Source: Yaniella halotolerans DSM 15476
Lineage (GTDB): Bacteria > Actinomycetota > Actinomycetes > Actinomycetales > Micrococcaceae
Direction: 5' to 3'
Assembly: GCF_000420805.1 (NCBI RefSeq)
Contig: NZ_ATVQ01000001.1
Span: forward strand, 372,001-436,000
Length of the DNA: 64,000 nucleotides
Shown here: one piece after another, positions 1-10,954 of the stretch
Position numbering within the stretch: position 1 is the stretch's first letter
Layout of the letters: the number at the start of each line of letters is the position of its first letter
Position numbers and translations under genes: made by a program
The notes under the pieces: model-generated
What the model saw: only the letters and a program-made list of their open reading frames with translations
Databases searched by the model: none
What the model was told of the DNA's origin: nothing

Positions 1-691
1 CGACGGCGTTGAGTTCGCGCCGAACCGCCCCCGCGACACGAATCGATTCACCGGCTTGCACGGAATCAGCAATCCGCGCCGACATCCGGCCACGGAAACG
101 GCGCAACCGCCGAGCCCGTTGCCGTGCAATCTGCGCTAAAAACGGCATGAGCACCGCGGTGAGAGCCAACGGCACAGCCACGGCAATGGCAACCGGCAGA
201 TTGATAAACACCAGTGTCCCCAGTACCACAGCAACGAGCGGCAGCGCCGTCAACATGGGAACCAAACCCTGTGCGATCCAGTTGCGTACCGCCGTCAGGT
301 CATTGGACGCACGCGTAACGACAACGCCAAGCGAACGGTTCCCGATGTCATGGAGTGCCGCCGTGATCAGGCGACGCCGCTGCTCATACACGTAGTCTTG
401 GCCAAGATCTTCGGCCACCACGCGTTCGACCCAGCGGGCGAAGCCGATCCCCAGCACCGCTGCCGCAAGTCCCACCATGAGGGCCCACGGCGGATCCGGG
501 ACCGACGGTGTCCCCGAGGTCAACGGAACAGCCGATAACAATCCATCGACCATCAGGGCCATGGTCAGCGCCAAAACCGCTTGAACCACCCCGAGGACCA
601 ACAGCGCGATCAGCAAGAATCGACGTCGGCCCCGCCAAACTTTAGGCATGCGTAACCGTTGTTGGGGTGCTGCCTGTGCGGTAACTGTCAT
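1..691 (-). CDS. ABC exporter, transmembrane domain (partial)
   Basis: Reading the minus strand from an ATG at 691 gives an open frame that runs off the window start, so only about the first 230 residues are visible. It begins MTVTAQAAPQQRLRMPKVWR, followed by a strongly hydrophobic segment and further membrane helices. The later motif VVTRASNDLTAVRNWIAQGL is typical of the type I ABC exporter membrane domain (ABC_membrane family). The ATPase domain would lie outside the window. Its ATG overlaps the stop of the upstream P-loop gene as ATGA, which implies translational coupling and a shared job. The substrate cannot be inferred. Confidence 0.75.
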   Translation of the reverse strand, partial: MTVTAQAAPQQRLRMPKVWRGRRRFLLIALLVLGVVQAVLALTMALMVDGLLSAVPLTSGTPSVPDPPWALMVGLAAAVLGIGFARWVERVVAEDLGQDYVYEQRRRLITAALHDIGNRSLGVVVTRASNDLTAVRNWIAQGLVPMLTALPLVAVVLGTLVFINLPVAIAVAVPLALTAVLMPFLAQIARQRARRLRRFRGRMSARIADSVQAGESIRVAGAVRRELNAV

Positions 692-1821
692 GAACGCACC
701 AACAGGCCCGTGGCGCACTCGGGTTGTGTGAGATCAAAGGTTGGAATGACGGGGACATTATCGAGCACACCGCGAGCTTCCACGGTGGCCAGCGGTGAGG
801 AGGTCATCACACCGGAGGCTACCGCGACGCGCAAGCCGGCAGCCTGGAGCTCTTGTACTCCAGCCCGTGCACCGAGTGCATCCGAGGCAGCAAACACGAC
901 CTGGTCAACGGTCTGTTGGAAGAGCTCATCACGCAACAGCTGAGCGGTTTCTTCCTGGTAGATGCCGTCGGCAATTTCTACCACGACGACGTCACTATTG
1001 GCCTGCGCTAACTGCTGAACCACACCAACGGTCAGCGCTCGCAGCTGGGGCATGGCCAAGCGGAAGGTGGTGGGGTACCCGAAGTCAGTGAAGTCCATGA
1101 CGTGGTCGGCACCGGCGTCATGATAAATCATCGGGTCATTGCCCGCACCGGTTCCGGTAATTTTGCCCGCACCAACACTGCGACCCGATTGAGTCAGCCC
1201 GTTGATGAGACAGGCCATCGTCGTAGATTTTCCAGAGTTCATAGCGGTGCCCAACACAGCGATGACTTCTGGGCGGCGCTGGTCCGCCCCAGCCGCCGGT
1301 CCTTCGTCTAGCTCACCTGGGGTTTGGTACGGGGCAAATTGCGAAATATTGACGACGCCGTTGTGGTCGGCCAGCAAGCCGATCGGTTCAATCACCGTTG
1401 GGTCATCCATTTTCTCGTGCGATTCGGTCACAACCCCGGCAATGCCGCCGGCCGCTACCAGGTGGCAGGGTTCCAACGAATCTGGCACATGGGCGAGGAA
1501 CTGATCAGCTGCATACCGGTTGCCATACGCGAGCATAATCAGGGCGCCCTCAAACAGAATGGCTTTGCGCGATTCTGGAGTTTCGACGCGTTTGTGGTTC
1601 AGGATCTCGGTCACCCGGGCTATGACGACGTCCCCACTGCGCGGTACAACGGTTTCTCCGGAACGCAGATGAAAATCTGCTGGCCGTGCATCCATGGCGG
1701 CACCCACGAACCGCGTGGTGTAAGACGCCTGTACCCGGTGGGGCACGCTTGCGTGGGTTACCGGTAGCGGCATGGATTCGAGTTGCTGGGTAGGTGGTGG
1801 GGTCAGGGAAACTGTAGTCAT
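688..1821 (-). CDS. DUF1611-like P-loop NTPase
   Basis: This 377-residue protein has a clear Walker A, GTAMNSGKSTT, near its middle, followed by GKITGTGAGND and a VVVVEIADG strand. That is the SIMIBI/CobQ-like arrangement of the DUF1611 family. The N-terminal half is a separate uncharacterised domain. I chose the ATG at 1821 because GAAAGG lies just upstream; a longer in-frame start at 1887 lacks one. The stop overlaps the start of the ABC exporter gene. The family is known to bind nucleotide, but its reaction is not established. Pairing with an exporter suggests modification or energy-dependent handling of an exported small molecule, which is inference. Confidence 0.6.
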   Translation of the reverse strand: MTTVSLTPPPTQQLESMPLPVTHASVPHRVQASYTTRFVGAAMDARPADFHLRSGETVVPRSGDVVIARVTEILNHKRVETPESRKAILFEGALIMLAYGNRYAADQFLAHVPDSLEPCHLVAAGGIAGVVTESHEKMDDPTVIEPIGLLADHNGVVNISQFAPYQTPGELDEGPAAGADQRRPEVIAVLGTAMNSGKSTTMACLINGLTQSGRSVGAGKITGTGAGNDPMIYHDAGADHVMDFTDFGYPTTFRLAMPQLRALTVGVVQQLAQANSDVVVVEIADGIYQEETAQLLRDELFQQTVDQVVFAASDALGARAGVQELQAAGLRVAVASGVMTSSPLATVEARGVLDNVPVIPTFDLTQPECATGLLVRS

Positions 1822-1896
1822 GGTGGAGACCTTTCGTCCGTCGTGTTGAGGTGAGACCAGTTCAACAAGCCAACATGAGGTCTTCATGACGGCTGC

Positions 1897-1912
1897 ATGA
1901 GAAGCCTCTCAT
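1897..1912. promoter_or_regulatory. Inverted repeat upstream of the P-loop gene
   Basis: ATGAGA and TCTCAT face each other across four bases, 76 bases upstream of the P-loop gene start. The half-site matches the motif repeated at 2000-2026 and 5147-5186, so it is probably part of the same operator system. No regulator gene is visible next to it. Confidence 0.4.
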
Positions 1913-1999
1913 CAAACCCGGGGTTCGGCATGTTTACACGGGCCTAAACCGACCATCCGTCGAAAAGTTCACACAGAATTCACTGTCTTTGAAGACAAC

Positions 2000-2026
2000 T
2001 CTCAGCAAGGTCTCAAACGGTTCTCA
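2000..2026. promoter_or_regulatory. Three TCTCA direct repeats at 11-bp phase
   Basis: TCTCA begins at 2000, 2011 and 2022, exactly one helical turn apart. The array lies in the gap between the HTTM gene and the P-loop gene and slightly overlaps the HTTM stop. This spacing is the usual signature of a winged-helix (OmpR/SARP-type) activator binding in tandem. The motif recurs ahead of the FAD oxidoreductase gene at 5147-5186. Confidence 0.45.
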
Positions 2027-2923
2027 GCGAAGTTGTGACCCAACCGGAAAATACGGGACATACGATACCCCGGACGTGTTGTAGGGAAACTTGATGCCCA
2101 TGATGTACCGGATGCCTAAGTGCATACTCCAGGCCGCAACGGAAAAGACCTGACCCCAGCGCCGGTTCACCAATGACAGCGGCGCGCCAAGCTCAACGAC
2201 CAGCGCTCCCACCCCCGCCAGGGTAAAGAGACCGCGAGCGTTATACAGGCGCCGAGCCGCTTCTGGGGCTTGGGTCCCGAAGACTTCTTTTCGCACCGCA
2301 TCTGCTGCGATTTGGTCGCGCAGCGTGTTCCCGGCGGCCCACTGCCACCCCTGGGGACTCCGCACTTTTGCCACCCCGGAGATAACATAGACCGCACAGG
2401 TCGCAATGTTCATGGCCGTCGGAATCCCACCGTATTCTCGGTCAAAGCGTTGCGGGGTCAACGTTTTATCCCGGACGATCGCATCAACGGATAGGGCATC
2501 CGCACTATGTGTCACGCCCAACACCAGCTGGTGCATCAATGCCATGTTGTCATTGTGCAGAATCATTCCCCACGAGTTCCGATAGCTCAGCGTCCAGAGC
2601 TGCAACGCAGCATTCACGGGGCCGCTGACGCGGTGGGCGATACCGAGCGTCGCAACAATATTGGTGACCTGGGCGGCATCGTACACAGCGTTTGCAACGT
2701 TCGGCGGCAACGGCCGACGCAACACACGGACCGGGCCAACCGGAGCAAACTGTGATGCATCTTGACGGTTGAGTTTATGGAACATCGACCGACGACGCAG
2801 GTTATTCCAGATCGTGAAAGCACCGGTCGTCAATCGCAACGCTGCCGGGCGCACCGGTTGTGCAGCAGGACGAAGTCTCTGGGCTACCCGGTAGAGCAAG
2901 CTGGAGGTATCTCGTGGTTTCAT
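2024..2923 (-). CDS. HTTM-domain integral membrane protein
   Basis: The protein has 299 residues and several membrane segments. The stretch around RNSWGMILHNDNMALMHQL, with the later helices TAMNIATCAVYVISGVAKV and LFTLAGVGALVVELGAPL, matches the HTTM domain (horizontally transferred transmembrane, related to vitamin-K-dependent gamma-carboxylase). It starts ATG at 2923, overlapping the stop of the preceding gene by four bases (ATGA). It is the last of three tightly linked genes with an unknown protein and a phytoene-desaturase-like oxidase. The catalytic role of bacterial HTTM proteins is mostly unknown; a lipid, quinone or carotenoid-like substrate would fit the neighbour, which is inference. 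Confidence 0.7.
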   Translation of the reverse strand: MKPRDTSSLLYRVAQRLRPAAQPVRPAALRLTTGAFTIWNNLRRRSMFHKLNRQDASQFAPVGPVRVLRRPLPPNVANAVYDAAQVTNIVATLGIAHRVSGPVNAALQLWTLSYRNSWGMILHNDNMALMHQLVLGVTHSADALSVDAIVRDKTLTPQRFDREYGGIPTAMNIATCAVYVISGVAKVRSPQGWQWAAGNTLRDQIAADAVRKEVFGTQAPEAARRLYNARGLFTLAGVGALVVELGAPLSLVNRRWGQVFSVAAWSMHLGIRYIMGIKFPYNTSGVSYVPYFPVGSQLR

Positions 2924-3534
2924 TTTGTTGGTTCCTCTACACGTTCAGCGAATCCGCCCACCACACAGCGAGCGCGTACGGTTTCCTCTTTGGGCAGACT
3001 CGGCTGCTCGCCAGTGGCAAAGTAGTCATCAAAGATAAAGCGGCTGCGCACCACCAATACTTCAACCACGGCGGCTTCACGACGACGTCGGATAGCTCCC
3101 GGAGACGATCCGTTCAACCGCCCCTGTCGATGTTCTGCGGCTAACGAATCGGCATAGCGTTGTGCGATGGCTGCGGCGTGACCACGGCGGACTCCCCGGG
3201 CGACCTGTTTCCGAACCTGGTTGACTCCGCCGGCCCCGTAGTGCCGGTGGTGCAAGCAGATCCGTTCACCGTCGGCGGTGATCCCGACCACGTGGGGAAC
3301 GATGATGCGCCCTTTGCGATCGGTCGAGAACATCGGATAGGTCGACAGTGGGAAAGAGTCCCGTTTGAATTTGGCGCGCCGGACCTGTTTCGGGGTACCG
3401 ACGTAGTGACGCAAAGGGGCAAGGAGCACCCCGGCAAAAGCCACATAGCCAGCAAGCGCCCAGAGATCTCGTGGAGTAACAGGCACGGCAGTATCAGGTT
3501 TTGGTGCAGAACAGTGTGAGTGAGAGATGAACAT
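2920..3534 (-). CDS. Conserved protein of unknown function linked to HTTM
   Basis: This 204-residue protein has one probable membrane segment near residues 25-45 (LWALAGYVAFAGVLLAPL). A basic soluble region follows, containing FPLSTYPMFSTDRKG and ICLHHRHYGAGGVNQVRK. I chose the ATG at 3534, which has GGAAGG six bases upstream; a longer in-frame extension to 3705 would run into the FAD gene. It sits 19 bases after the FAD oxidoreductase and overlaps the HTTM gene by ATGA, so all three are probably translated together. I do not recognise a family. The paired histidines HHRHY suggest metal or cofactor binding, but this is only a guess. Confidence 0.65.
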   Translation of the reverse strand: MFISHSHCSAPKPDTAVPVTPRDLWALAGYVAFAGVLLAPLRHYVGTPKQVRRAKFKRDSFPLSTYPMFSTDRKGRIIVPHVVGITADGERICLHHRHYGAGGVNQVRKQVARGVRRGHAAAIAQRYADSLAAEHRQGRLNGSSPGAIRRRREAAVVEVLVVRSRFIFDDYFATGEQPSLPKEETVRARCVVGGFAERVEEPTK

Positions 3535-3553
3535 GTGGCCTTCCGTCGATGGG

Positions 3554-5065
3554 TCAGTCGGTGAAGTCTTGAGTAACCGCCTGCGCCGCCCACGCTCCGG
3601 GCATGCCGTGCACCCCAGCACCGGGCGGGGTGGACGACGAGGCCATATACAACCGGGCTGTATGGTTCGCCGAACCACGCGATTGTGGGATGCGGTAGGG
3701 GCCAAAGGTCAGCCCGGGTCGAAGCAGTGCTTGGCTTCCGGTCATGGCACCCCCGGCGACATCACCCCCGATGAGATTGGGATTCCAGGCTGCTAAGTCT
3801 GCCGGGGAGGTTTCAACCTGCTTGAGCACTCGTTGTTGGAATCCCGGTGCAAAACGTTCGATTTGGTTCATGATCAATCCCGCGATTTCCCCTGGCCTGG
3901 ATTCCCGATAGCCGTGGGGCACATGCGCATACGTCCACACCACGGTTTTGCCAGCCGCGGCACCAGTGGCTCGGGTGGGATCAGCTGCATGTTGTTGACA
4001 GACCATGACGAATGGATAGCGCGGGAGGCGTCCGGCGGCGACGTCGGCCTCTGCCCGGATCAATTCTCGGCTGCCGCCCACCACGTGGACAGTTCCGGCC
4101 CCTGCGACGGCAGGATTAGTCCAGGGGATCGGACCGTCGAGGAGAAAATCGACTTTGAAGGCTGCGGTGCCGTAGCGCCAGTTGTTTAGACGTCGTCGAG
4201 TTGGGCGTGAAAGCTGTGACCCGGCGTCATCGGCGGTGTCGGTGAGCCGGACGACTTGTGCCGGGGTGAGATTGAGGATGATAGCGTCGGCCGTCGGCAA
4301 ATCGGCCAGGCTGGTCACCTCCTGGTTCAGATGCACCTGTCCGCCGTGCGCACGTAAAACAGAAAGCAAAGCCTCCACCAGTTGTCCGGTACCACCGCGG
4401 ACCACGGGCCAACCCCGGCTCATACCCAGCGCCCCGAACAATAGACCAAAGGCACCGGTGAAGGGCATGGTCAAAGGAACGATCGCGTGGGCTGCGGAAC
4501 CCAAAAAGAGTGCACGCGCGGCTTCAGTGGAAAAAGCTGAGTTCACGACCCAGGACGCGGGTGCTGCAGCGACCGGTCCGAAGCGTGCCATACGTAGCGG
4601 GTGCGGAGGAACTCGCAACATGGGGCCCAACAGGTTACGGAGATGCTCGTCAATATGTTCGATGACATGACCGTGAATACTACGCCACCGAGCAGCGTCT
4701 GGCCCCAGACCCTGCGCCGTCATTTCAACATCCCGATGCAATACGGCGGCTTCACCGTGCGGTAATGGGTGGGCCATCGGGACCTCGGGGTGGACCCATT
4801 CCAGCCCATGCGAGGTCAGGTCCAGGTTACGAAACACCGGACTTGCGACACCAAACGGATGCCCGGCCGCGCCGAGATCAACGACCGTGCCGAGACCAAG
4901 GGTATCCGCAGATGCTGCAGCGCCACCGGGATGCGCATTGCGTTCATATACGTCGACCTGCCACCCTGCTCGGGCGAGTAATGCAGCGGAGGTGAGCCCG
5001 TTGGGACCGGACCCGACCACAATGGCACGACGGCCGTGGTTGCTGGAACGCGAGTGGATCGGCAT
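3554..5065 (-). CDS. Phytoene-desaturase-like NAD(P)/FAD oxidoreductase
   Basis: The protein has 503 residues. The N-terminal RAIVVGSGPNGLTSAALLAR followed by VDVYERNAHPGGAAAS is a canonical FAD-binding Rossmann site with the conserved glutamate and GG. The C-terminal GAGVHGMPGAWAAQAV is the second FAD contact typical of amine-oxidase/phytoene-desaturase relatives. The start at 5065 is preceded by AAAGGAAA. It is the first gene of the three-gene set with an unknown protein and HTTM. No crtB, crtE or cyclase gene lies nearby, so classical carotenoid synthesis is not supported. The substrate is unknown, probably a hydrophobic polyene, quinone or lipid. Four phased ATGAG repeats lie 82-121 bases upstream. 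Confidence 0.75.
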   Translation of the reverse strand: MPIHSRSSNHGRRAIVVGSGPNGLTSAALLARAGWQVDVYERNAHPGGAAASADTLGLGTVVDLGAAGHPFGVASPVFRNLDLTSHGLEWVHPEVPMAHPLPHGEAAVLHRDVEMTAQGLGPDAARWRSIHGHVIEHIDEHLRNLLGPMLRVPPHPLRMARFGPVAAAPASWVVNSAFSTEAARALFLGSAAHAIVPLTMPFTGAFGLLFGALGMSRGWPVVRGGTGQLVEALLSVLRAHGGQVHLNQEVTSLADLPTADAIILNLTPAQVVRLTDTADDAGSQLSRPTRRRLNNWRYGTAAFKVDFLLDGPIPWTNPAVAGAGTVHVVGGSRELIRAEADVAAGRLPRYPFVMVCQQHAADPTRATGAAAGKTVVWTYAHVPHGYRESRPGEIAGLIMNQIERFAPGFQQRVLKQVETSPADLAAWNPNLIGGDVAGGAMTGSQALLRPGLTFGPYRIPQSRGSANHTARLYMASSSTPPGAGVHGMPGAWAAQAVTQDFTD

Positions 5066-5146
5066 ATCGGTTTCCTTTTGTAGTGCGACACCATCAGGTT
5101 ACGGGGCACCCATCACGTGCTGGTGTTTCTATCGTCGGCCAGACAC

Positions 5147-5186
5147 ATGAGAACACTATGAGCTCCTGATGAGAAGGCGATGAGAA
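5147..5186. promoter_or_regulatory. Four ATGAG direct repeats at exact 11-bp phase
   Basis: ATGAGAA, ATGAGCT, ATGAGAA and ATGAGAA begin at 5147, 5158, 5169 and 5180. They lie upstream of the FAD/HTTM operon and downstream of the glycosylase gene. Exact 11-base phasing on one strand points to cooperative binding of a winged-helix regulator. The core is the same as at 1897-1912 and 2000-2026. Confidence 0.5.
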
Positions 5187-6027: not shown

Positions 6028-7176
6028 GTGCGAAAAAGTCGCGTCATAAGTATTTTTGGTGCCGCGCTCGCGGTGCTTCTCCTGAGTCTTTGGCTGACTC
6101 CACGTGCCGAGGCTTCGACAGTGATGAGAGTAGTCGATGGGGACACACTTGTCGTTGAAATCAACGGTGAAGAAGAAACGATTCGACTCCTCAACGTTGA
6201 TGCTCCAGAAACCAGCCATCCAAGCAAACAAGACCAATGTCTCGGTGCCGAAGCAACACAGTGGCTTACCGAACGGTTACCCGCTGGGACAGAGTTAGAG
6301 CTGGAATTCGATCATGAGAAATACGACCGTTACGGAAGGACTCTGGCCGCCGTATACGCAGACGGTTCACTAATCAATGCCGAACTCGCATCTGAGGGCC
6401 TCGGTATTCCCAAGACCTATGGGAAAAACGATACATTCCGTTCTCAAGTTGATGCCGCACACTCGAATGCAAAGTCAGCGCAAAAGGGCCTATTCGATGA
6501 AGACATCGACTGCACCATAGCGGCTCAGCAACAAACACTGGAAGGTCTCGTCGACCAGCTACCAAGCGTGCCAGATGACGCAGATCCTACAGCAGCTGTC
6601 GAAGAAGCCACGAGTATCAGCGAACAAATCGATTCCCTGGCCGAGACCTTGGAGAGTGGACAATTAGCTTCAGCAGGTCTGGCAATCTATGATACTCAGA
6701 CTTTCGCCAGCACGCTTTCAAACCTTCAAGCTGATGCAGCACGCGCTGTAGCCAAAAGCCAGCGTCGAGTAACTGATCTCGAATCAGCGCTCGAGGATTG
6801 GGAAGCCGAACAGGAACGTATCAAGAAAGAAAAAGCGGAGAAAGCACGCGCTGAAGCCGAGGCTGAAGAACAAGCGCAGCAGCAAGAGCAGCAAACGCCT
6901 AAACCTGTTTCACCGCAACCGGCACCAGCTCCTCGGCCTACACAAAATCAGGCACCCCAGCAGCCGGTACCACCAGCCCAAAGGCCTAGTACTCCCCAGA
7001 CTCGGACGCCGGCCCCTCCTCCGGCTCCTGCTCCAGAACCGAAACCCACGAAAACGCCTAATAAAAAATCATCGTGCGTGCCGTATGGTCCCGAAATCTC
7101 TTATGCAAATGATGGTGGCTACACCGGCCTACGGTACGGGATGCCAGGCGGCAAGACGTTCCGCAAATGTAGCTAG
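6028..7176 (+). CDS. Secreted staphylococcal-nuclease-like protein with long tail
   Basis: This 382-residue protein starts at a GTG preceded by GGTTGAGG. A signal peptide covers about residues 1-29 (LAVLLLSLWLTPRAEAS). Residues 30-150 form an SNase domain: VDGDTLVV, IRLLNVDAPE and YDRYGRTLA carry the usual aspartate, arginine and glutamate positions. Next comes a helical region with a charged lysine/glutamate/alanine stretch, then a proline/glutamine-rich linker. The end is a small domain bounded by cysteines (SCVPYGPEISYAND to FRKCS). It is probably an extracellular or wall-associated nuclease. The tail may bind the envelope; I do not recognise the last domain with certainty. Confidence 0.75.
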   Translation: MRKSRVISIFGAALAVLLLSLWLTPRAEASTVMRVVDGDTLVVEINGEEETIRLLNVDAPETSHPSKQDQCLGAEATQWLTERLPAGTELELEFDHEKYDRYGRTLAAVYADGSLINAELASEGLGIPKTYGKNDTFRSQVDAAHSNAKSAQKGLFDEDIDCTIAAQQQTLEGLVDQLPSVPDDADPTAAVEEATSISEQIDSLAETLESGQLASAGLAIYDTQTFASTLSNLQADAARAVAKSQRRVTDLESALEDWEAEQERIKKEKAEKARAEAEAEEQAQQQEQQTPKPVSPQPAPAPRPTQNQAPQQPVPPAQRPSTPQTRTPAPPPAPAPEPKPTKTPNKKSSCVPYGPEISYANDGGYTGLRYGMPGGKTFRKCS

Positions 7177-8856: not shown

Positions 8857-10954
8857 GGTTGATCTCCTCGTTGGCTACGGCCATGCGGGCATAGTATTCA
8901 TTCAAATCGTCGAGGTCGCTATCCCCGAGTCGGTCGACGCGATCGTCACGGCGTTTAGCTTGTTGCATATCATCTTGGCGCCAGCGGAACAGCACCATCA
9001 TGGCCATCCCCACCGTTGGGAATTCACCGGTCCCCCACATGATCAGCCCACCGATTTGTTGGTCTTCGATAGCAGAGGCACCCCAGTCGCGGCCGATGGC
9101 TGAGAACCATTCGGACATCAGCAGTGATTCGGAGCCCGTGAGGGACACAGCGATGAATGCGTGGAACACCATGGTCGCTAACAACACGACCAGCCGCAGT
9201 GGATAACTTGGCCTATTGGGTAGTGGGTCGATACCAATCATGACCGATGCGAAGATAAAGCCGGTCAACAAGAAGTGAATATTCATCATCTCGTGACCGA
9301 TGTGGTAGCGCAACGCAAACTCAAAGACCGGGGTGAAGTAGAAAATCACCAGTGATCCGGCAAAGTTCATCGCCGCAAAAATCGGGTTGGTAATGACTTT
9401 TGAATATTTCGAGTGCAGCAGGGCCAGCATGTACTCGCGTGGGCCGCGGGTACCGTCTTTACGGGATGCCATGCTGCGCATAGCGAGAGTAATTGGTGCA
9501 CCGAGTACCAAGAAGATCGGTATAAGCATGGTCAGGATCATGTGGTTGACCATGTGCGCGGAGAACAGCACCAGCCCGTAAATTGCCGGTGCTGCGGAAG
9601 TATCCCACACCAGAATTGCTAAACCGATGAAGAAGAGGATAGTTCGGCGGATCGGCCATTTATCACCGCGTGCGGAGAGTTTTCGGATAGCCCGGATGTA
9701 CCAGACAGCCAAGAAGATGGCGACGGCAACCCAGAGCCAGTTGAAACGCCATTCGGTGATCCAACGGATCGCTGTCAGTTCGGGCGGCAACTCATATTTG
9801 GTGGTAATCCGGGCCGGCGAGGCGTCCGGTGGGATCTCCTCGGGTTTCGGAGGTTCGGAACTACCCAGCAGCGTTGCGGTGACCATGACGCCCACCATGA
9901 TCACAACTTCCACGGCGATCAACTGCCATAGGGTCTTGCGCGCACCGACTGGAGGCTGGGTCGTCCCGGTTTTCAGTCGAGGAATGACACGCACCCGGTG
10001 GGCCAGACCGATAAGACCTAGAGCGATAGTCAAGACGGCTTTCAGGACAACCATCTGGCCGTAGGGTGCAAAGAAGTGACTGAAGTTCTCCATACGGATG
10101 GCCGCATTTGCGACTCCGGATGCGGCAATCAGCGCGATGGCAACCCCTGCAACGGCGGAATACCTGGTCAGCACCGTGTAAACCAGTGGTTGGGTGTTAT
10201 TCGCTCTCGCCCGTGATGTGAGTTGGGCGGTTCCGGTGAGCTTAGGCGCTAGCAGGGCTAGCAGCACTAACCCGCCGATCCACAGCAGCACACCGAGTAG
10301 GTGCAGACCAATCGAGTTGACGGCAGCAAAGTGGTCATCGCCCGAAGATGAGTGACCCACCAGTGCCAACGGGACCACACCGATCAGTGTTAGGACCGCA
10401 CCCCAGGCCATACCGACTGGGGTACGGAGTGCGAAAATGACGCTGGTGACGACAGCTGCGATGATCGTCATCCAGAACCATGCCCGACCAACGGCGATTG
10501 CCAGCACGTAGTCGAGCATGCCTTCGGAAAACCCTTCGGAAGCATTGACGGGCATTCCCGCGACATCCGAATAGGTAAAGACGATTTGTGCAAGGGCACT
10601 GAACGTCCAGATGATCGCTGAGACACTGGCGATTTTTATGGTCCGAGCATACGCCGGGTGTTCCACGGCGTCACTGGGCGGGGCGTGTCCACGGCGCGGC
10701 ATTTTGGTCCACTGCGGCAAAATCACCGCGGCAAACATCAAGGCGCCAAAGGTCAGCGACCAGGCAATATTATGGATCACCTTGGTAGCGGGCAGTGCCC
10801 ACCGGGTGAGCGCACCGGGGTCGGAGAGCTCCTGGACCCCGGTGACACCCGATTGGAGTCCGATGACAATCAAAAATGCCACGCCAGTCACGACCGAGAC
10901 AGGCCAGAGCCAGCTCGGTGCGGTGGTAGTTGGTGTATCAGTTTTCGTTGTCAA
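8840..10954 (-). CDS. Fused CopD / CtaG copper membrane protein
   Basis: A 704-residue multi-pass membrane protein. The N-terminal half (about residues 20-370) resembles CopD, the copper-resistance inner-membrane protein, with LHLLGVLLWIGGLVLLALL and a DUF-type helix bundle. The C-terminal half (about 400-680) is a CtaG/caa3-type cytochrome oxidase assembly domain, with histidine-rich helices such as VLFSAHMVNHMILTMLIP and YHIGHEMMNIHFLLTG. The start is a TTG at 10954 with AAGGAG upstream. Fusions of this kind are common in actinobacteria. It is expected to move copper across the membrane and deliver it to the CuA/CuB oxidase centres, working with the CopC protein encoded upstream. Confidence 0.85.
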   Translation of the reverse strand: MTTKTDTPTTTAPSWLWPVSVVTGVAFLIVIGLQSGVTGVQELSDPGALTRWALPATKVIHNIAWSLTFGALMFAAVILPQWTKMPRRGHAPPSDAVEHPAYARTIKIASVSAIIWTFSALAQIVFTYSDVAGMPVNASEGFSEGMLDYVLAIAVGRAWFWMTIIAAVVTSVIFALRTPVGMAWGAVLTLIGVVPLALVGHSSSGDDHFAAVNSIGLHLLGVLLWIGGLVLLALLAPKLTGTAQLTSRARANNTQPLVYTVLTRYSAVAGVAIALIAASGVANAAIRMENFSHFFAPYGQMVVLKAVLTIALGLIGLAHRVRVIPRLKTGTTQPPVGARKTLWQLIAVEVVIMVGVMVTATLLGSSEPPKPEEIPPDASPARITTKYELPPELTAIRWITEWRFNWLWVAVAIFLAVWYIRAIRKLSARGDKWPIRRTILFFIGLAILVWDTSAAPAIYGLVLFSAHMVNHMILTMLIPIFLVLGAPITLAMRSMASRKDGTRGPREYMLALLHSKYSKVITNPIFAAMNFAGSLVIFYFTPVFEFALRYHIGHEMMNIHFLLTGFIFASVMIGIDPLPNRPSYPLRLVVLLATMVFHAFIAVSLTGSESLLMSEWFSAIGRDWGASAIEDQQIGGLIMWGTGEFPTVGMAMMVLFRWRQDDMQQAKRRDDRVDRLGDSDLDDLNEYYARMAVANEEINHDPKR

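Follow-up and report, generated by a model that had tools for sequence, protein, structure and literature searches.

Two neighbouring gene units of Yaniella halotolerans DSM 15476 (Micrococcaceae), one opening with a gene for a flavin adenine dinucleotide (FAD)-dependent oxidoreductase and the other with a gene for a P-loop protein followed by an ABC exporter gene, are preceded by short repeats at an 11-bp pitch, and the question raised by this locus is whether one regulator reads both. The window, i.e. the whole stretch of DNA that was analysed, covers 64,000 nucleotides of a 2.78-Mb genome (contig NZ_ATVQ01000001.1, positions 372,001 to 436,000; G000:C1:372001-436000). The original prediction, made from the letters of the window, had assigned both units to a single winged-helix regulator. 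The core of this idea is well supported by the identity of half-site and pitch in the two arrays, by their conservation across genera, by the presence of the array before unlinked P-loop genes, and by the linkage and co-occurrence of the arrays with a regulator gene of the OmpR/PhoB type. The arrays, named A and B, are very probably operators of this regulator (G000:C1:750217-750873), which would activate an envelope-polymer regulon. They are organized as follows.

5147-5184, minus strand: array A, before the FAD gene, CTCAT-N6-CTCAT-N6-CTCAT-N6-CTCAT, four direct half-sites at 11-bp pitch, score 20 of 20.
1875-1912, minus strand: array B, before the P-loop/ABC genes, ATGAG-N6-CTCAT-N6-GTCAT-N6-CTCAT, first half-site inverted.

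All the repeats originally reported were found at their positions, namely TCTCA at 2000, 2011 and 2022, ATGAG at 5147, 5158, 5169 and 5180, and the inverted pair ATGAGAAGCCTCTCAT at 1897-1912. The latter is one end of array B, a larger regular set which had been overlooked. In both conserved arrays CTCAT points towards the array's own gene, and the claim that the repeats of the two units face opposite ways is true of the following set only.

2000-2026, plus strand: three TCTCA at 11-bp pitch, a set that overlaps the upstream gene's stop codon, lacks conservation and is of doubtful function.

In the closest relative (L012), only the middle unit of this set is kept, with one out-of-phase TGAG, and no corresponding three-unit set was found in the same stretch of L013, L014, L016 and L024. 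Comparison with related genomes, which the original prediction had put forward as a check, retained arrays A and B, in other genera too, and left aside the 2000-2026 set, which alone may be of chance origin.

With up to one mismatch, TGAGA-N6-TGAGA has 8 matches in the window versus 3.3 expected, a number reached in none of 100 shuffles. Three TGAG words at 11-bp pitch without mismatch occur at three places in the genome, every one at this locus; the same pattern with one mismatch allowed is unremarkable (11 places genome-wide versus 7 for a backwards control). Three CTCAT words with up to two mismatches occur at five places genome-wide (backwards control: one). Array A contains two of them, array B another, a fourth precedes a DUF4956 gene adjacent to the regulator gene and the fifth lies elsewhere. 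The exact pattern ATGAG-N6-CTCAT-N17-CTCAT is restricted in this genome to array B and to the DUF4956 gene beside the regulator, and two mismatches raise the count to five places versus one for the control.

Among the first relatives, the array was found before the FAD gene in five loci carrying the full cassette (L012, L013, L014, L016 and L024) and on a partial contig (L029), and in none of the 12 loci where the flanks of the FAD homologue are without other cassette genes (L015, L017-L023 and L025-L028). A search with the membrane protein of the cassette detected it in 22 of 395 sampled family genomes. The survey of FAD arrays covered 22 loci, L016 and L024 having been added to 20 retrieved ones; an FAD gene was found in 16 and not in the other six. 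Arrays scoring 19-20 of 20 were present in 11 of these 16 loci, in addition to the window (20). The P-loop gene was present in 23 of 43 panel genomes and was preceded within 400 bp by an array scoring at least 18 in 19 of the 23 loci, each score being above all 200 shuffles. Seven of these 19 arrays were already known (G000, G110, G125, G140, G395, G396 and G001) and 12 were new; the first half-site is inverted in 18, G001 being the exception. Nine of the 19 array-bearing P-loop genes (G003, G034, G082, G102, G119, G133, G148, G139 and G188) lie on a different contig from the FAD module or more than 1 Mb away from it, G148 and G188 being fragmented drafts in which a separate contig is no proof of distance. 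The P-loop gene of G105 is also on a separate contig and was left out of the nine, because its ABC gene is next to that of the membrane protein where a contig ends, so that a contig break was assumed. Since unlinked P-loop genes keep the array, the shared array is not merely one inherited block.

The half-site columns carry 1.89 bits in 12 FAD arrays and 1.80 bits in 18 P-loop arrays, compared with 0.74 and 0.63 bits for the spacers and 0.65 and 0.60 bits for the flanks. A score of at least 17 was obtained for 18 of 633 predicted locus genes: 7 FAD, 4 P-loop, 4 DUF4956 and 3 near the regulator. Gene calls outside the window came from an open reading frame (ORF) picker, and this count, like that of 286 genes given below, is drawn from loci selected for their cassette or regulator; because some ORF starts are wrong, several known arrays are missed by both counts.

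At the level of the family, the exact pattern ATGAG-N6-CTCAT-N17-YTCAT was found in 86 of the 395 genomes, distributed in 15 of 32 genera, and the pattern of four direct units in 13. One of the latter genomes (G280) owes its match to a minisatellite (G280:C1:680224-680305) with a perfect 11-bp unit and CTCAT in each. Four four-direct-unit matches were read in genus g13: one precedes a relative of the GT28-like glycosyltransferase gene, two precede similar genes and one is without assigned gene. Reading of 50 array loci (20 hand-chosen regions and another 30 which include eight P-loop and one DUF4956 gene known or expected) gave 52 arrays, located before 19 GT28-like glycosyltransferase genes (an assignment just below the Pfam cut-off), 11 DUF4956, 10 P-loop and 2 UDP-glucose dehydrogenase genes; three others precede genes for acidic-tailed proteins, three precede other genes and four have no assigned gene. 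Rather than two operons tied into one system, as had been proposed, the system looks wider, extending to a DUF4956-VTC unit, to the operon of the regulator itself and, in relatives, to the glycosyltransferase and UDP-glucose dehydrogenase genes.

A DUF4956-VTC pair neighbours the regulator in L129, L135, L137, L140 and L144, the Pfam names coming from L129 and the other loci being assigned by similarity. In the 43-genome panel, 8 of 12 DUF4956 homologues have an inverted-first array scoring 16-19, the third unit being imperfect in seven; one of the eight, that of G001, has an array scoring 19 at about 0.8 Mb from its regulator. Inverted-first arrays also precede three genes near the regulator, coding for a 432-residue protein (L138, 8996-10294) and for small proteins (L146, 8032-8493; L147, 8612-9136), which are candidates for further regulon members. 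In two genomes, back-to-back arrays on opposite strands separate GT28-like glycosyltransferase and UDP-glucose dehydrogenase genes (G349:C1:127167-127240 and G316:C33:46124-46197).

The regulator is encoded outside the window and combines a receiver domain (PF00072, 1.8e-25) with a Trans_reg_C winged helix (PF00486, 9.6e-25); the adjacent gene codes for its partner histidine kinase (HAMP, HisKA and HATPase_c). With these two domains, the partner kinase and half-sites repeated in tandem at about 11 bp before the predicted targets, which it would bind, the protein is a member of the OmpR/PhoB family. Its scores stay under the NCBIfam equivalog cut-offs for PhoB (166.7 of 296.2), MtrA (166.8 of 300) and CseB (153.4 of 350). 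In five relatives the regulator and P-loop/ABC genes are less than 7 kb apart: the OmpR-type regulator and its histidine kinase adjoin the P-loop-ABC module in L089, L095 and L094, about 1.3 kb separate the regulator and ABC genes in Gulosibacter (L148), and about 6.3 kb, with other genes between, in L133. The regulator is also present in L093 (G068), a locus whose genome yielded no P-loop gene. An array lies at 8 kb or less from the regulator gene in at least 37 of the 86 array genomes, the distances having been picked by hand, and at 80 bp or less in seven of those.

Orthologues of the regulator (E up to 1e-72) were detected in 178 of the 395 family genomes. In the panel their bit scores are at least 271, versus about 230 and less for other response regulators, and 34 orthologues formed one clade (support 100/98) apart from 14 hand-picked paralogues in an unrooted tree that gave long-branch warnings. 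The regulator was present in 82 of the 86 array genomes versus 96 of the 309 others (Fisher p 3e-29, uncorrected for kinship) and in 22 of 22 genomes with the cassette versus 156 of 373 others.

The first gene of the regulator operon codes for a small protein with a hydrophobic segment at the N-terminus and a tail rich in Asp (poly-Asp). Among 20 regulator loci, this gene could be read in 11, a spurious ORF was obtained in two (L132 and L138) and none in seven. A site was present before the poly-Asp gene in all 11 readable operons, as CTCAT-N6-CTCAT in nine and as a one-letter variant in two (L139 and L143); in L140, where no poly-Asp gene was read, a two-unit site precedes the kinase gene. 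Within 200 bp upstream, the exact two-unit site was found for 7 of 286 predicted genes of the 20 loci. Five of the seven code for poly-Asp proteins, another codes for a kinase of this two-component system, and the last lies in the vicinity of the regulator. This regulator was proposed on the basis of gene linkage, of co-occurrence with the arrays and of the matching site before its own operon; its binding to the arrays, activation and autoregulation, as well as the signal and function considered below, are inferred. As a separate observation, the end of the recognition helix is altered (NKLG to TKIG or similar) in four genomes of genus g15 (G178, G044, G090 and G154) whose P-loop arrays are degenerate, yet G139 and G188 also differ at this end and keep their arrays, which breaks the pattern.

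In the mechanism envisaged, the regulator, encoded with the histidine kinase and the small poly-Asp-tailed protein, would be phosphorylated, and its dimers would attach in head-to-tail order to CTCAT half-sites repeated every 11 bp. A four-site array would accommodate two dimers, the last half-site being near -35, and the bound regulator would activate the FAD-c4-membrane-protein, P-loop-ABC, DUF4956-VTC and own operons. The position relative to the promoter relies on the following element.

5128-5133, minus strand: candidate -10 hexamer GATAGA, picked visually from the alignment, 13 bp past the final half-site of array A.

This spacing would place the last half-site of array A near -35. In several promoters, a -10-like hexamer was noted by eye 10-13 bp after the last CTCAT, which would again bring the last half-site close to -35, the arrangement of class-II activation, and activation by two dimers per array was proposed on this ground; if the arrays are read by this regulator, such an activation is likely. 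The presence of glycosyltransferases, UDP-glucose dehydrogenase, DUF4956-VTC and an ABC exporter among the predicted targets suggests, from gene content alone, that the regulon product is an envelope or extracellular polymer, which would be produced and exported. That the poly-Asp tail points to a cation or a cationic peptide as the signal is a guess. A wider scheme is advanced only tentatively: a three-part sensor, made of the kinase, the regulator and a membrane-anchored poly-Asp protein binding cations or cationic peptides, might control an envelope-polymer regulon throughout the family by way of four-site arrays of mixed polarity, with the FAD-c4-membrane-protein and P-loop-ABC units making and exporting an undescribed surface product as part of this regulon.

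Several observations weigh against the assignment of the arrays to this regulator. In Y. halotolerans the arrays and the regulator gene are about 375 kb apart. The FAD homologue of L015, a probable orthologue 65% identical to that of the window, is without array, as are the c4 and membrane-protein genes on contig C12 of G138, the probable genome of L015. The four-unit array is missing in 5 of the 16 FAD loci (L090, L091, L092, L096 and L098), three of which retain an exact two-unit site, and scores of just 12-14 were obtained at 4 of the 23 P-loop loci (G178, G044, G090 and G154) and of 11-13 for four distant DUF4956 homologues (G119, G034, G395 and G002). The 96 of 309 genomes that have the regulator without the exact array belong here, with the kinship-uncorrected Fisher test, as do four array genomes lacking a regulator above the cut (G005, G035, G228 and G377); in G005, a regulator match with an in-frame stop lies beside the array. 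Finally, the inverted-first arrays misfit a simple head-to-tail model: an inverted half-site in the same 11-bp phase would call for a flexible linker or for a dimer arranged head to head.

The same regulator could act as a repressor, the array near -35 blocking RNA polymerase until a signal relieves it. A last half-site near -35 would suit this mode too, but OmpR/PhoB regulators with tandem sites at -35 are activators as a rule, and repression is considered unlikely. The arrays could also be read by a different DNA-binding protein, such as a MerR-like protein of the CarH/LitR type or BldC multimerising on direct repeats. CarH operators consist of 11-bp repeats, and CarH/LitR was the first idea raised by the pitch; it was dropped because the B12-binding domain PF02310 gave no match in the genome (E up to 0.001), a search whose control was positive in 12 of 14 and which speaks against a classical CarH, BldC having not been searched for. 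BldC forms cooperative multimers on direct repeats according to an excerpt of PMC5859096. The linkage, the co-occurrence and the own-operon site favour the response regulator over another DNA-binding protein, which appears improbable. As for chance or low-complexity sequence, the motif is short, the G280 minisatellite matches by repetition alone and some of the 86 array genomes could hold chance matches; nevertheless, the backwards control was found in none of the 395 genomes for both array patterns, the half-sites are constant while the spacers vary, and the conservation of arrays A and B already contradicts chance, so that this explanation can hardly be entertained. Operators of the OmpR/PhoB-family regulator remain the preferred reading of arrays A and B.

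The CTCAT half-site differs from the PhoP and Pho-box words, and the motif of E. coli ArcA differs from the CTCAT arrays. Within the OmpR/PhoB family, the closest solved structure by sequence is M. tuberculosis PrrA (1ys6, E 7.9e-49), a likeness that is a sequence match to the structure; the poly-Asp protein gene in the operon is a feature of the present system. M. tuberculosis PhoP, in an excerpt of PMC4832192, recognizes 7-bp motifs with a 4-bp spacer, that is, direct repeats at 11-bp pitch, so that both PhoP and the Pho boxes resemble the present case in the association of a winged-helix response regulator with direct repeats at this pitch. Unlike the PhoP and Pho-box operators, the present arrays have four half-sites, the first being inverted in the array-B class, and unlike PhoB and MtrA the regulator falls below the NCBIfam cut-offs. 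E. coli ArcA is a response regulator with a diverse binding-site architecture (excerpt of PMC3798270), and its regulon and phylum differ. Genes for DUF4956 and poly-phosphate polymerase, with CotH, accompany Pel loci in a polysaccharide context (excerpt of PMC7112168); unlike these sets, DUF4956-VTC here adjoins the two-component system, behind its predicted operator.

The control is therefore of a known kind. The mixed-polarity array is unusual, as is the poly-Asp protein in the operon, and no account of the motif, of the system or of the regulon was found among the literature matches listed, which leave most subscription journals outside their coverage. The two-component system of 178 of the 395 genomes gains a predicted operator, an own-operon site and a predicted regulon. 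The P-loop-ABC unit, c4, the membrane protein, DUF4956-VTC and the poly-Asp proteins are tied to glycosyltransferase and UDP-glucose dehydrogenase genes, which makes a common role testable, and the array, with one inverted half-site kept in phase, would present a binding geometry worth solving.

The genes behind the arrays are all on the minus strand of the window.

3554-5065, minus strand: FAD-dependent oxidoreductase with distant similarity to CrtO/CrtI; of the genes behind array A it comes first.
2920-3534, minus strand: c4, small protein with no family assigned; in its model, a single long helix at the N-terminus accompanies an alpha/beta part.
2024-2923, minus strand: helix-rich (membrane) protein, originally labelled HTTM; no HTTM-family match in Pfam or NCBIfam, no PDB sequence match.
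688-1821, minus strand: P-loop protein, weak AAA_26/BioD-like matches below curated cut-offs.
1-718, minus strand: subunit of an ABC exporter, truncated at the window edge; the L012 relative, which is full-length, is CydC-like, below the equivalog cut-off.

For the P-loop gene, the start at 1821 was preferred to that of the longer ORF (1887), since the latter falls inside array B. The nearest FAD homologues among named genomes are from Yaniella (87% identical). The HTTM label found no support in Pfam or NCBIfam searches: the 2024-2923 protein gave no HTTM or vitamin K carboxylase-like match, nor any other Pfam match, up to E 0.001; at E up to 1, its L012 relative gave two unrelated Pfam matches at 0.23 and those of L016 and L024 none; and neither the window protein nor that of L024 had an NCBIfam match up to 0.1. 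Profile searches of the PDB with alignments A1 (membrane protein, one row of which, L014, is out of frame at its end) and A5 gave no match. The structure model of the membrane protein had a predicted local distance difference test score (pLDDT) of 34 and was set aside as unusable, and a Foldseek search with the c4 model (pLDDT 74) gave nothing at E up to 0.001. The corynaridin cluster includes a protein called HTTM (excerpt of PMC9927463), through which a linaridin-type peptide pathway was considered; its other genes differ, and it is kept as a lead.

In L088 (G140), the membrane-protein gene is found in two frames (about 9105-9988 after orientation), due to a frameshift or an assembly error. 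Between the membrane-protein and P-loop genes of L016, an imperfect CTCAAGGATCGGCTC repeat with 21-24-bp spacing is present at about 10735-10810. A similar protein is encoded after the ABC gene in three loci of the Yaniella group (L012, 7973-10018; L013, 13307-15352; L014, 13941-15494), that of L013 having a thioredoxin-like domain and an NHL repeat. Outside the cassette, the plus strand of the window codes at 6028-7176 for a protein with an SNase nuclease domain and a long proline-rich part.

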